Assembly: GCF_007066085.1 (NCBI RefSeq)
Contig: NZ_CP041405.1
Coordinates: forward strand, 1,240,001 to 1,304,000
From: Paenibacillus thiaminolyticus
Lineage (GTDB): Bacteria; Bacillota; Bacilli; Paenibacillales; Paenibacillaceae
Reading direction: 5' to 3'
Length of the DNA stretch: 64,000 bases
Each line of letters opens with the position of its first letter. Positions within the stretch are counted from its first letter, which is position 1. The position numbers were made by a program, and so were the translations under genes. Below are positions 53,696 to 59,920 of the stretch, one piece after another. Under the pieces are notes generated by a model. That model ran no database searches and was not told the DNA's origin. It was given only the letters and a program-made list of their open reading frames with translations.

Positions 53696-54145
53696 TTACG
53701 AAATATACTCTTCAATTTGCGCTACGACTTGGTCGCTTTGTTGCTTGGTCCGGCAAATGATAAGTATCGTGTCGTCTCCGCAGACGGTGCCCATTATCTC
53801 TGGCCACTCGATGCTATCCATCAATACGGCAATGGCGTTTGCCGTGCCAGGCAGACATTTAATCACGACCAGATTTTCCGTGCTATCGATGCTGATGAAG
53901 TTATCCAGCAGCGCCCGCTTCAGCTTTTGGGCCGGGTTGAAGCGCTGGTCAACCGGCAGCGAATATTTGTACCGCCCGTCTTTCATCGGAACTTTGATCA
54001 AATGCAGCTCCTTCATGTCCCTGGACACGGTTGCCTGCGTCACGTGGTAGCCTGCGCTCCGTAAGGCATCGACTAATTCATCCTGGGTTTCGATCTCGTT
54101 GTTCATAATGATTTCCCTAATTTTGATATGTCGTTGACCTTTCAT
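53696..54145 (-). CDS. argR: Arginine repressor ArgR/AhrC
   Basis: The 149-residue hexameric regulator has the N-terminal winged helix ([21 protein letters not shown], then [14 protein letters not shown]) and the C-terminal arginine-binding domain with [12 protein letters not shown] and [13 protein letters not shown]. It represses arginine synthesis and activates catabolism. Location between recN and tlyA matches ahrC of Bacillus. Confidence 0.96.
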
Positions 54146-55671: not shown

Positions 55672-57570
55672 CTAGGCCCGGCTCATCCGGTTATCGCCAT
55701 GAGCGAAGAGCATCGTATGGACTTCCTTCACCAGCTGTTCCACCGTTAGGCCTGTCTCCTGGCGCTGCTCCTTGATGCTGCCGTGCTCTACGAAGCAATC
55801 GGGAACCCCAATCGGCTTCACCTTGACGCCGAATACATGATGCTGCGCATAATATTCCATGATGGCGCTGCCCAGGCCGCCTGCCACGGAGCCCTCCTCC
55901 AGCACGATCATCGGCAGCTGCTCTCTGGCGAGCAGAGTCAGCATCGCCTCGTCGAGCGGCTTCATGAAGCGCGCATTGATGACGCGCAGCTGAATGCCTT
56001 CGCGCCGCAGTTGCTCCGCCGCTTCCTCGGCGACCTGAACCATCGGGCCGATCGCGACGACAGCGGCATGATCGCCGGGGCGAACCATTTCCCATGTCCC
56101 GATCGGAATCGGAATCAGATCGGCATCCAGTTCGACGCCGACCCCGTTCACGCGGGGGTACCGCACCGCAATCGGACCTTCATCGTATTCGAGCGCAGTC
56201 TTCAGCATATGGCGCAGCTCATTTTCGTCCTTCGGCATCATCAGCACGATATTCGGAATATGGCGCATAAAAGCGATATCGTACACGCCTTGATGCGTCT
56301 CCCCGTCCGGTCCGACGAACCCGGCGCGATCGATTGCGAAGATTACGTTCGCGCTCTGGCGGCAGATGTCATGGACCACCTGATCGTATGCACGCTGCAG
56401 GAAAGTGGAGTATACCGCGAATACCGGCTTCATCCCTTCCATAGCCAACGCGGCACACATCGTGGCGGCATGCTGTTCGGCGATGCCGACATCGATCATG
56501 CGGCTCGGGAAGCGCTCAGCGAATCCAAGCAGTCCGGAGCCCCCCGGCATGGCAGGCGTAACGGCCACCACGCGATCATCCTGCTCCGCCAGCTCGACGA
56601 GCGTCTTGCCGAACACCTCGGTATACATCGGATTGCCTAACGCCTTCAGCACTTGCCCGGATTCAATCTTGTACGGCGAGATGCCGTGCCATTTATGCGA
56701 ATCGGCTTCCGCCGGCGTGTATCCTTTGCCTTTGCGGGTCACGACATGAATAAGCACCGGGCCGTTCACGCGGCTCGCTTGCTGAAAAATATCGATCAGC
56801 TTGTCAATGTCATGCCCGTCGACGGGGCCGAAATATTTCAGTCCGAACTCTTCGAACAGCATGCCGGACACGACCAAATATTTAAAGCCGTCTTTCACCC
56901 GTTCCGCCGTCTTGGCCAGCTTGCCGCCAATCGCCGGAATCTTTTTGAGCAGCTGCTCGACTTCTTCCTTCGCCTTTAAATAGTTCCGGTCGGAGCGAAT
57001 CTTGCACAAATAGTTATGTAGCGCTCCGACATTCGGGGCAATCGACATCTCATTGTCGTTCAACACGACCATCAGATTCTTCTTCTCATGCCCGATGTGA
57101 TTGAGCGCCTCAAGCGCCATGCCGCCAGTGAGCGCACCGTCGCCGATGACCGCGATCACCTTGTTGCTCTCGCCCTTGAAATCCCGGGAAAGCGCCATTC
57201 CCATCGCCGCCGACAGCGAGGTGCTGCTATGGCCGGCTTCCCATACGTCATGCTCGCTCTCCGCGCGCTTGACGAAGCCGCACAGCCCTTTATACTGGCG
57301 CAGCGAATCGAACCGGTCCTTGCGGCCGGTCAATATTTTATGGACGTATGCCTGATGACCGACGTCGAATATCATTTTGTCCCGGGGACTGTCATATAAA
57401 TAATGCAAGACAAGCGTAAGCTCGACGACGCCCAGGTTCGATGCCAGATGTCCTCCGGTCACCGCCAGCTTTTCAATGAGAAATTGTCGAATTTCTTCCG
57501 CCAGGACAGGCAGTTCTTCCTTCGTCAACCGCTTCAGATCGCTAGGTTGGTTAATCTGTTCGAGCAGCAC
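55672..57570 (-). CDS. dxs: 1-deoxy-D-xylulose-5-phosphate synthase
   Basis: The 632-residue thiamine diphosphate enzyme starts the MEP isoprenoid pathway from pyruvate and glyceraldehyde 3-phosphate. Motifs include DVGHQAYVHKILTGR near 70, GDGALTGGMALEALNHIG with the ThDP-binding GDG, and the C-terminal transketolase part with DRAGFVGPDGETHQGVYD. The start is a GTG at 57570, seven bases after GAGGG. It overlaps the end of the upstream membrane protein gene, tying its translation to that gene. Confidence 0.96.
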   Translation of the reverse strand: MLLEQINQPSDLKRLTKEELPVLAEEIRQFLIEKLAVTGGHLASNLGVVELTLVLHYLYDSPRDKMIFDVGHQAYVHKILTGRKDRFDSLRQYKGLCGFVKRAESEHDVWEAGHSSTSLSAAMGMALSRDFKGESNKVIAVIGDGALTGGMALEALNHIGHEKKNLMVVLNDNEMSIAPNVGALHNYLCKIRSDRNYLKAKEEVEQLLKKIPAIGGKLAKTAERVKDGFKYLVVSGMLFEEFGLKYFGPVDGHDIDKLIDIFQQASRVNGPVLIHVVTRKGKGYTPAEADSHKWHGISPYKIESGQVLKALGNPMYTEVFGKTLVELAEQDDRVVAVTPAMPGGSGLLGFAERFPSRMIDVGIAEQHAATMCAALAMEGMKPVFAVYSTFLQRAYDQVVHDICRQSANVIFAIDRAGFVGPDGETHQGVYDIAFMRHIPNIVLMMPKDENELRHMLKTALEYDEGPIAVRYPRVNGVGVELDADLIPIPIGTWEMVRPGDHAAVVAIGPMVQVAEEAAEQLRREGIQLRVINARFMKPLDEAMLTLLAREQLPMIVLEEGSVAGGLGSAIMEYYAQHHVFGVKVKPIGVPDCFVEHGSIKEQRQETGLTVEQLVKEVHTMLFAHGDNRMSRA

Positions 57571-58189
57571 GGGAATTCCCTCGCTTTCGTTGTTTCGATT
57601 TGCCGCGTTTCTTGGCGAGCAAGCGAATATGGAGCTTGGTCTCCAAAAAATAGAAGCATTTGCCGATCAGCAATACAATCGAAGTGGAGTAATGAATCGC
57701 AAATGACTTCCCCAACGCTTTGCCTCCGACGGTTAATGCGGATACGAGGCCAGTAAATGCAACGCTTACCGCTGTCGTCATCCATACGCTCTCCGCATTC
57801 ATGGACCATAGCAAATTCGTCACTACGATCGCCGTGGCCGAGCCGCTGATAACCCCTGTCATGTCACCAATCACGTCATTGCAGAAGTTCGAGAAACGAT
57901 CCGCGTTGCGCACGATATAGATTGCTTGCTTGGCTCCGCGCACCTTCTCCGCCGCCATCGCATGGAACGGAGTCTCCTTCGCGGCAGCCGCAGCTAAGCC
58001 CATAATATCAAAAAACACTCCAATAAGCACGAGCATCAACACAATCACCATACCGACGCCCCAGCCTGCTTTCCCCAGCATTGACGTGGAGGCAACAGAC
58101 AATATGACGGCCAGCGCAAAGGTGACGAAAAAAATGAATATGCTCCACTTGACGGAATGTTTGAATGAAAACTTCATTATCGCTGTCAA
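57551..58189 (-). CDS. oapA: OLE-associated membrane protein OapA (CNNM/DUF21-like)
   Basis: The 212-residue protein has four hydrophobic helices (about 14-36, 42-65, 118-140 and 170-190) and a strongly basic tail (KKRGKSKQRKRGNSRAARTD). Between the second and third helices is a charged stretch with GAKQAIYIVRNADRFSNFCNDV. It lies directly downstream of the OLE RNA stretch and upstream of dxs, the position of OapA in Bacillus halodurans. The fold resembles the membrane domain of CorB-like transporters. The start is TTG at 58189 or the ATG four codons later. Function is inferred from position and topology. Confidence 0.75.
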   Translation of the reverse strand: MTAIMKFSFKHSVKWSIFIFFVTFALAVILSVASTSMLGKAGWGVGMVIVLMLVLIGVFFDIMGLAAAAAKETPFHAMAAEKVRGAKQAIYIVRNADRFSNFCNDVIGDMTGVISGSATAIVVTNLLWSMNAESVWMTTAVSVAFTGLVSALTVGGKALGKSFAIHYSTSIVLLIGKCFYFLETKLHIRLLAKKRGKSKQRKRGNSRAARTD

Positions 58190-58244
58190 CTCATCCTTTT
58201 ATGAGATCCACGAACGATCCCATGTGTATGTGTCTTGATAACCA

Positions 58245-58897
58245 ATGATGGTTGGAGTGGTAGCTTTCTGGATAAACGCTGTGGCTTAGGTCCAGTAGGT
58301 TTTCCCAGACGCCCGCCTCCCCGTCGCCGGGCAGGCCGTTTCCAATTAAGAGCGTCTTGACGCCGTCGCCGGACGTCAGACTGGATTACCACTTAGACCA
58401 CACTATAATCCCCACAAAGCCTCACAATGTGAACAGTCTAGGAGTTTTCCTCGAGCAGCCCTGAACCGACCCTTAGCCTCTTTTGCAAATCAGATTTCAT
58501 GCGGCATCCGATAGGCCGGTCATTGGCCTAAGACCGGCGTCTCTACACATCCGCAATCCCTGCAGACTCACTCAAGGCAGGCTACGCTACATACAAGCCA
58601 CCTTCACGGAACGATCCGGCAAGCCGGAGAGCGTTCCGCGTGACTCGCGGTATAGGTTCATACCCCAAGCCGTAATGCGGCGCGCGAGGGCGCCGTACCA
58701 CGCACTTGGGCCTCCGCGGAAGCGGGGTCAACGCCCACATGCCATTGTGGATCGCCCCACAACCTTAACTCCCAGCATCAGCCCACGACTGGGCGTCGCA
58801 AGCCAACACCAGGAACTTCATCGATGTGCCCTTTGGCGAATTTTTAGGCCCGCCTTCGGTGTCGGGAGGCCGACTAGAATACTGCACCACTCTATGT
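58245..58897 (-). ncRNA. ole: OLE (ornate large extremophilic) RNA
   Basis: About 650 bases on the minus strand between ispA and oapA lack a gene but form many hairpins: TTGTGGGG/CCACAA, CGGAACG...CGTTCCG enclosing TCCGG/CCGGA (near 58605-58640), GACGCCGGTC...GACCGGC and GACGCCC...GGGCGTC. A promoter with a perfect TATAAT starts it. Length (about 610-640 nt), isoprenoid-gene position and the membrane protein downstream match OLE RNA, which binds OapA at the membrane and affects cold, ethanol and magnesium tolerance in B. halodurans. The 3' end is approximate. Confidence 0.82.
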
Positions 58898-58904
58898 ACG
58901 CTCT

Positions 58905-58933
58905 ATTATATCACAAAACGGGAAAGCGAATCA
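58905..58933 (-). promoter_or_regulatory. Predicted promoter of OLE RNA
   Basis: On the minus strand TATAAT (58910-58905) is preceded by a weak -35 (TGATTC) at 17 bases. Start would be near 58897. Confidence 0.6.
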
Positions 58934-58996: not shown

Positions 58997-59920
58997 TCAG
59001 AATCGGCGCGCCATCAAATAATCCGCCAGCTCGTACAGGCGCGCCGGATAAGGAAATCCGGCCTGCCGCACGGCTTGCTTCGCTTCCTCCGTCAGCCGGG
59101 CGACCTCCTGCTTCGATGCCTCTAGACCGATAAAATACGGGTAGGTCACCTTCCCGCTCTTCTCATCGCTTCCCTTCGGCTTGCCGAGCAGCGCTTCCTC
59201 GCCGGTGATATCCAGAATATCGTCCTGAATCTGGAAGGCGAGGCCGAGCTTCGTCCCGAATTCGGTCATCGCGTTCAGTTGAGCTTCATTGGCCCCCGCC
59301 AGATGGGCGCCTGCGCGGAGCGCGAACACGATCAGATCGCTCGTCTTGTGAAGATGAATATACTCAACCTGGTCCAGCGTCGTCATTCCCTGTTCGCCCA
59401 GCATATCGGCGGTCTGGCCGCCCACCATTCCTCGCATGCCGGCATAGAAGGACAGCTCCTCGGTGATGGTCAGGGCGATCTCGGCCGGAATGCCATGACG
59501 GCGCGCGCATTGCGCAACCGTATAGAAGGCATGGGTCAGGAGCGCATCGCCCGCCAATATGGCCAGAGCTTCCCCGAACACCTTATGGTTGGTCGGCTTG
59601 CCTCGGCGGTAATCATCGTTATCCATCGCCGGCAGATCATCATGCACGAGGGAGTAGGTATGTATCATCTCGATGGCGCAGGCAACCGGATCGGCGGCTT
59701 CCAGCGGGCCATCCAGGCTCTCGCATGCGATGACAACACAGAGCGGCCGCAGGCGCTTGCCCCCGGCCATCAGTGAATACAACATCGATTCCTTCAATTC
59801 GGCAGGCACCTGCCAGCCGGCAGGGAATTGAGCGGGCAGCAGCCGCTCAATCCGCGCGACGTGACGCTCCAGATAAGAAGCGAACCGTTCTTCTGCTTCA
59901 GTGCTACTCAATCCGATCAC
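58997..59920 (-). CDS. ispA: Farnesyl diphosphate synthase family polyprenyl synthetase
   Basis: The 307-residue protein elongates isoprenoid chains from IPP and DMAPP. The first aspartate-rich motif is HDDLPAMDNDDYRRGKPTNH near residue 93 and the second FQIQDDILDITG near 234. Chain-length determinants suggest a farnesyl product. The GTG at 59920 overlaps the xseB stop; a TTG three codons later is an alternative. It precedes the OLE RNA locus. Confidence 0.94.
   Translation of the reverse strand: MIGLSSTEAEERFASYLERHVARIERLLPAQFPAGWQVPAELKESMLYSLMAGGKRLRPLCVVIACESLDGPLEAADPVACAIEMIHTYSLVHDDLPAMDNDDYRRGKPTNHKVFGEALAILAGDALLTHAFYTVAQCARRHGIPAEIALTITEELSFYAGMRGMVGGQTADMLGEQGMTTLDQVEYIHLHKTSDLIVFALRAGAHLAGANEAQLNAMTEFGTKLGLAFQIQDDILDITGEEALLGKPKGSDEKSGKVTYPYFIGLEASKQEVARLTEEAKQAVRQAGFPYPARLYELADYLMARRF

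Follow-up and report, generated by a model that had tools for sequence, protein, structure and literature searches.

The OLE RNA locus of Paenibacillus thiaminolyticus and its counterparts in relatives

OLE RNA is a very large and well-known bacterial non-coding RNA whose function is poorly understood; high abundance, membrane binding and stress phenotypes are among the traits of its class. Here we describe an OLE gene in a 64,000-nucleotide (nt) stretch of Paenibacillus thiaminolyticus DNA (the window; positions 1240001-1304000 of contig NZ_CP041405.1). Together with the adjoining gene of the membrane protein OapA, it very probably forms a complete, standard OLE ribonucleoprotein (RNP) locus, a judgement on identity and make-up rather than on mechanism. 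The locus itself is ordinary and adds a typical member to an RNA class already known.

The OLE RNA, its promoter and its protein partners

An Rfam scan of the whole window gave two matches in all. The OLE model RF01071, whose gathering score is 50 bits, matches window positions 58906-58241 on the minus strand over model positions 1-616 with 500 bits (E 1.1e-143). The initial annotation had read a gene-free stretch of about 650 nt as OLE RNA and had named the Rfam OLE model as the check, and this full-length match bears it out. There is one OLE copy in the genome, and it is identical to RF01071 at 236 of the 249 upper-case (most conserved) consensus letters. The folding energy of the 666 nt is -284.8 kcal/mol, compared with a mean of -258.2 kcal/mol for dinucleotide shuffles (z -4.0), and none of 20 shuffles folded as well. 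Full matches of the same length, with 496-507 bits, are present in five close relatives. From the promoter and the terminal helix described below, we infer that the mature RNA runs from about 58898 to about 58250.

The genes around OLE, all on the minus strand, are nusB, folD, xseA, xseB, ispA, OLE, oapA, dxs, an S4-FtsJ methyltransferase gene, argR and recN. This contains the ispA-OLE-oapA-dxs arrangement that had been proposed, with oapA overlapping dxs. The features of the locus, in window coordinates, are as follows.

58997..59920, minus strand: ispA, farnesyl diphosphate synthase (NF045485, 378 bits)
58905..58913, minus strand: extended -10 promoter TGATATAAT, read from the sequence
58241..58906, minus strand: OLE RNA, covariance-model match (RF01071)
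57551..58177, minus strand: oapA, predicted four-helix membrane protein of 208 amino acids (aa) with DVIGD motif and basic tail (sequence and model)
55672..57570, minus strand: dxs, with a 20-base overlap with oapA (TIGR00204, 898 bits)
53696..54145, minus strand: argR, downstream in the same gene cluster (PF01316 and PF02863)

For comparison we used 120 OLE loci, 35 from a search of relatives (the window's included) and 85 from a class sample. All 120 have an upstream IspA match, 108 have dxs downstream inside the fetched flank, and 112 have OapA directly after OLE, counting genome G055, where the reduced OLE match and the start of oapA overlap. The G094 contig breaks off within OLE, and its oapA was located on a different contig.

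The TATAAT promoter expected from the initial annotation is found at 58910-58905 and is of the extended -10 type, with TG at the proper spacing; OLE starts there. No good -35 box was seen before the window OLE, and a generic promoter scan did not list this promoter. Of 118 loci (two of the 120 have no anchor), 99 have an exact TGnTATAAT immediately before OLE, against 0.0017 in shuffled upstream sequences. The best -10 hexamer has TGn in front of it in 111 of the 118, including all 35 of the relatives search, and the commonest -35 hexamer is TTGAGC (17 loci). The part of PMC10898510 available to us does not describe the extended -10 box.

The listed open reading frame (ORF) of the membrane protein, 58189-57551, lies 51 nt from the OLE model end. 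The more likely oapA start is the ATG at 58177, giving 208 aa, because the alignment with more distant relatives begins only near that residue. In the structure model, four long helices are followed by a shorter one at the C-terminal end, and the basic tail, residues 188-208, is predicted with low confidence. This is in keeping with the basic-tailed four-helix membrane protein overlapping dxs that had been described. Both D residues and the G of the DxxxD motif (here DVIGD) are invariant in 31 aligned OapA proteins. The CNNM membrane fold was found in OapA; its CNNM sequence similarity is weak (22.2 bits, under the Pfam cut-off of 28.4), and CBS and CorC_HlyC domains gave no match. Neither a solved structure (by sequence, at E 0.1) nor a PHROGs family matched it.

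We identify this gene as oapA because of the DVIGD motif, the weak CNNM similarity and the co-occurrence with OLE: of 118 genomes of the order, the 35 with OLE are exactly the 35 with a strong OapA match (E <=1e-55). Weak OapA matches (E about 1e-4) turn up in four more genomes, in frames of 463-527 aa that are presumably MpfA. In the class sample, OLE is above the cut-off in 86 of 398 genomes, always with at least 451 bits; among the OLE-less genomes of this sample, the OapA search covered G219. All 120 OLE-bearing genomes have an OapA match, with the G074 protein in two pieces (a stop between the frames) and the G079 protein split over contigs. In seven class genomes (G136, G247, G128, G149, G258, G278 and G288), oapA is absent from the OLE site, and a profile search places it elsewhere in all seven (E 2e-40 to 2e-50). 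At loci L106, L131, L164, L166, L168, L172 and L174, a full-length OLE is followed by a hairpin with a T run and then by dxs, with oapA elsewhere.

The genes of the partner proteins OapB (G000:C1:3072837-3073145) and OapC (3091947-3092201) lie elsewhere in the genome, outside the window as had been supposed. As markers of OLE, the two are uninformative since they are near-universal.

Several side observations concern the surroundings of OLE. ArgR is named as an OLE partner, as unpublished, in the available text of PMC12265935, which also counts yqhY among the genes often near OLE. An Asp23-family gene (PF03780) is upstream of nusB at window 63967-63590 on the minus strand. The Pusillibacter faecalis plasmid pMM59_01 (NZ_AP023421.1) carries an OLE match of 399.8 bits (L331 5983-6647) with a CNNM-type gene in the place of oapA and with dxs-tlyA-argR-recN; this 504-kb plasmid, typed as conjugative, is probably a chromid. 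A nucleotide search of a phage collection gave no OLE match. The second Rfam match of the window is an FMN riboswitch at 6236-6071 on the minus strand (99.4 bits).

Structural elements of the RNA

Stem names below are our own assignment from the descriptions in papers, as Rfam names none. The elements located in the window OLE, from 5′ to 3′ in the RNA, are as follows.

58885..58892, minus strand: 5′ strand of the terminal helix, GAGTGGTG, pairing with 58262-58255
58874..58884, minus strand: 5′ strand of P3, CAGTATTCTAG, proposed membrane-spanning helix (membrane role as given in the available text of PMC12265935)
58841..58845, minus strand: A-run of L4, CUAAAAAU, taken as A-A bridge B1 of the OLE dimer (covariance-model alignment; bridge according to the available text of PMC12286853)
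58820..58825, minus strand: AUCGAU palindrome by P4a, possible OapA contact (from the sequence, the choice of site being ours)
58586..58653, minus strand: hairpin after AACCU, long version of 68 nt, in the P8 region by our assignment (length comparison)
58525..58528, minus strand: GGCC palindrome in the apical loop UUAGGCCAAU, taken as the L9.3 kissing loop (B3) of the OLE dimer (bridge likewise according to PMC12286853)
58434..58441, minus strand: 3′ strand of P3, CUAGACUG (strand search)
58315..58375 (limits by eye), minus strand: P12.2/P13 region with two GGCGAC loops, the reported OapB site (covariance-model alignment; available text of PMC12265935)
58255..58262, minus strand: 3′ strand of the terminal helix, UACCACUC, pairing with 58892-58885

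The terminal helix, GAGTGGTG with TACCACTC, is unpaired in the Rfam model and present in the window OLE. Over 116 OLE RNAs, the 120 less G055, G094 and two that lack the anchor, its mean best length is 9.37 base pairs (bp), compared with 7.94 bp when partners are swapped between genomes. Both P3 strands are present in 114 of 118 OLE RNAs. Palindromic OapA sites are placed in or near P2 and P4a in the available text of PMC12265935.

The candidate dimer-contact elements, the L4 A-run CUAAAAAU and the GGCC loop, are both present in the window sequence, and the GGGCGA and UUGACCC consensus letters, sought for the putative OapC kink turn, appear in the covariance-model alignment. Over the 120 OLE RNAs, a folding script gave the L9.3 palindrome as GGCC in 86, GATC in one and TTAA in one, with none in 13 and no anchor in 19. 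Among the 33 order-level OLE RNAs in which both anchors are present, 29 have a hairpin of 58-76 nt after AACCU; in the class sample, the commonest length is 26 nt (27 of 85).

Deletion and loss of OLE in relatives, and other readings of the stretch

Large OLE deletions occur in two of the 13 OLE-bearing family members. In G016 (L052 4519-4889) the OLE match is 371 nt long with 237.7 bits; nearly all that should follow the L4 hairpin, up to where the P9 arm ends, is gone, but the promoter, P3 and L4 remain, as does the 3′ domain. The adjacent OapA retains its membrane body, with DVNGD for DVIGD, and has lost its basic tail through a frameshift. In G055 (L053 4909-5086) the promoter and 108 nt of OLE match are followed 5 nt on by the oapA ATG, and the OapA body is intact. 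Assembly error is possible for G016 (about 40 contigs) and, to a lesser degree, for G055 (2 contigs). Since all OLE matches above the cut-off in the class sample have at least 451 bits, such deletions are rare there. In G219, of another family, what remains downstream of ispA (L181 4599-4672) is a ghost of OLE, 74 nt long and, with 22.9 bits, under the cut-off; P3-like strands can still be made out in it by eye, and the genome gave no OapA match.

The G016 copy resembles the OLE variants 1 and 2 of PMC11332333, as described in its available text, in lacking domain 1 stems: variant 1 has shortened P7-P9, and variant 2 has no P7 and P8. In G016 the loss begins with the stem that follows L4 and extends to the P9 arm, sparing almost nothing in between. 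Variant 1 often loses OapB-type hairpins, whereas the G016 copy keeps the 3′ domain with them.

Nine genus mates without OLE complete the picture. In all nine, the stretch from ispA to dxs contains TGnTATAAT (0.02 after shuffling) as well as GAAAGCGAGGGAA-CCCGTGCTGCTCGA, a sequence that corresponds to the oapA end and the dxs start region in close relatives with OLE. These sequences are most simply read as the result of a loss of OLE and oapA that left behind, on either side, a promoter and a ribosome-binding site that dxs would still need. A Dxs tree groups the 10 OLE-bearing genus members and resolves neither the OLE-less ones nor their number of losses; as these nine genomes are related, they do not count as independent events and may go back to one or a few. 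No clear sign of relaxed selection on oapA after OLE loss was seen, the pairs being too old for a good test: the ratio of nonsynonymous to synonymous substitution of the OapA body was 0.052 (G016-G017) and 0.057 (G055-G025), compared with 0.023-0.049 for ispA and dxs.

Relatives with a full OLE, with domain 1 deleted, with a 5′ stump only and with none, all at the ispA-dxs site, make up a natural deletion series, a route to finding which part of OLE or OapA gives tolerance of magnesium, cold or alcohol. Because G016 has lost nearly all of domain 1 and the OapA tail, and G055 has an intact OapA body with about 108 nt of OLE, one could suppose that OLE is modular, with the basic tail of OapA reading domain 1, and that the membrane part of OapA works without the RNA while the tail is kept only as long as domain 1 exists. 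We regard this idea as unlikely. The loss of domain 1 in G016 also takes dimer contacts, the kink turn and one OapA site.

These relatives bear on another account as well, in which the stretch is mainly a long cis-acting leader controlling oapA and dxs and not a trans-acting RNA. OLE does lie behind a promoter and ahead of oapA-dxs, and the scan shows no terminator separating it from oapA. Because TGnTATAAT is kept upstream of dxs in the nine OLE-less genus mates, the promoter probably serves dxs, and in G055 the remnant of OLE runs straight into oapA. Nevertheless, a mere leader is improbable, as OLE is full length (490-538 bits) even in the seven class genomes, out of the other 85 with OLE, that have oapA away from the site, and published work, in the text available of PMC9723947 and PMC12054373, describes a trans-acting RNP. 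All seven have a hairpin and T run after OLE; this point is weak, and an own terminator was rejected as the mark of a separate transcript, because a loose scan finds the same at 55 of the 111 other loci.

A protein or peptide encoded in the stretch, which the initial annotation had named as the refuting case, is very improbable, as no reading frame has a convincing coding signal. A tempting candidate was a micro-ORF in P4a, where a conserved, Shine-Dalgarno-like AAAGGG is followed by an AUG and an 18-codon frame ending in a conserved in-frame UAA. Among the 109 of 120 OLE RNAs that have the motif (11 do not), however, the frame is broken in 24, intact in 83 and runs on in two, and in the 83 intact frames third positions are the least heterozygous (0.095, against 0.144 and 0.179 at the other two). 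The micro-ORF was rejected on these frame breaks and least-variable third positions. A 68-aa sense frame stays open over at least 56 aa in seven of ten relatives, which we attribute to the conserved RNA beneath, but in the remaining three only 22, 3 and 35 aa are left, and among the seven its end varies. A 216-aa antisense frame exists in the window OLE, but is kept in none of the ten relatives and shorter in all of them. Neither frame has a Pfam or NCBIfam match.

Decay of the kind seen in G016 and G055 is known in the family, but that the window holds a decaying copy is hardly credible given the full-length match with its conserved letters, the intact promoter, an OapA with motif and basic tail, and the equally long full matches in the five close relatives.

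Mechanism, MpfA proteins and comparison with known systems

The locus has an intact OLE gene with an extended -10 promoter, read towards oapA-dxs, and an intact OapA gene adjoining it, with the OapB and OapC genes elsewhere. The steps from here are drawn from papers on Halalkalibacterium halodurans and on the dimer seen by cryo-electron microscopy. By analogy, OLE would be transcribed together with oapA-dxs, would fold, and would dimerise via L4, L5-L7 and the L9.3 loop. OapA would be a dimeric membrane protein with a CNNM-like fold that holds OLE at the membrane, while OapC would bind the kink turn and OapB would bind P12.2/P13. OLE may act as a membrane stress RNP tuning OapA, a CNNM-like transporter. 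According to an idea in the available text of PMC11332333, OLE stands in place of the CBS and CorC domains. That OLE is the regulatory part which OapA lacks, replacing these domains of MpfA, and tunes divalent-cation movement through OapA under magnesium, cold, alcohol or carbon stress seems to us about evenly balanced between true and false.

The genome also encodes three complete MpfA proteins, each with CNNM, CBS and CorC_HlyC domains, whereas "no more than one" alongside OLE is called typical in the available text of PMC11332333. Counts of long CNNM proteins per genome, uncorrected for phylogeny, were 2.14 in OLE-bearing (n = 35) and 3.48 in OLE-less genomes (n = 83) of the relatives search, 2.46 (13) and 3.59 (58) in the family, and 2.3 (10) and 3.2 (9) in the genus. 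For OLE-less genomes, these are all matches at E 0.001, and for OLE-bearing ones the matches above 170 bits, excluding OapA itself. The trend agrees with the published one. Two or more long CNNM proteins are present in 23 of the 35 OLE-bearing genomes, and the presence of three complete MpfA proteins alongside OLE in this genome shows the reach of the published OLE/MpfA exchange.

Replacement of OLE by a single MpfA subtype was rejected as a general rule. Among the matches listed, subtype 'x' occurs in the genus in all four fully listed OLE-less genomes and in none of the 10 OLE-bearing ones; outside the genus, it also occurs in seven OLE-bearing genomes (G073, G074, G081, G083, G088, G091 and G099). 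No subtype confined to OLE-less genomes could be defined in this chosen set, which took in best matches and not every OLE-bearing match (182 frames entered, 120 kept by BLAST). One misread ORF (G007b) was dropped from the later MpfA tree.

As to novelty, the initial annotation gave each well-defined locus a high value, which was overweighted, as 2,822 OLE matches have already been mapped across Bacillota (PMC11332333, available text). A limited literature search on OLE RNA and Paenibacillus found no paper mentioning Paenibacillus, and the locus adds an intact OLE RNP locus in a member of this genus that is close to P. dendritiformis.

Compared with H. halodurans OLE (RF01071), the window locus shares the full-length structure, the conserved letters, the ispA-OLE-oapA-dxs order and encoded OapA, OapB and OapC. 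It differs from the RF01071 family in the long hairpin after AACCU (68 nt rather than the 26 nt commonest in the class sample), and its genome differs from a typical OLE genome in the three MpfA proteins. Its OapA shares with known OapA proteins the predicted four-helix membrane architecture, the DxxxD motif, the basic tail and the position adjoining OLE; nothing notable sets it apart, and it is 96% identical to the P. dendritiformis protein. From the MpfA/CorB/CorC (CNNM) magnesium transporters, OapA differs in being without CBS and CorC domains and in scoring below the CNNM cut-off.

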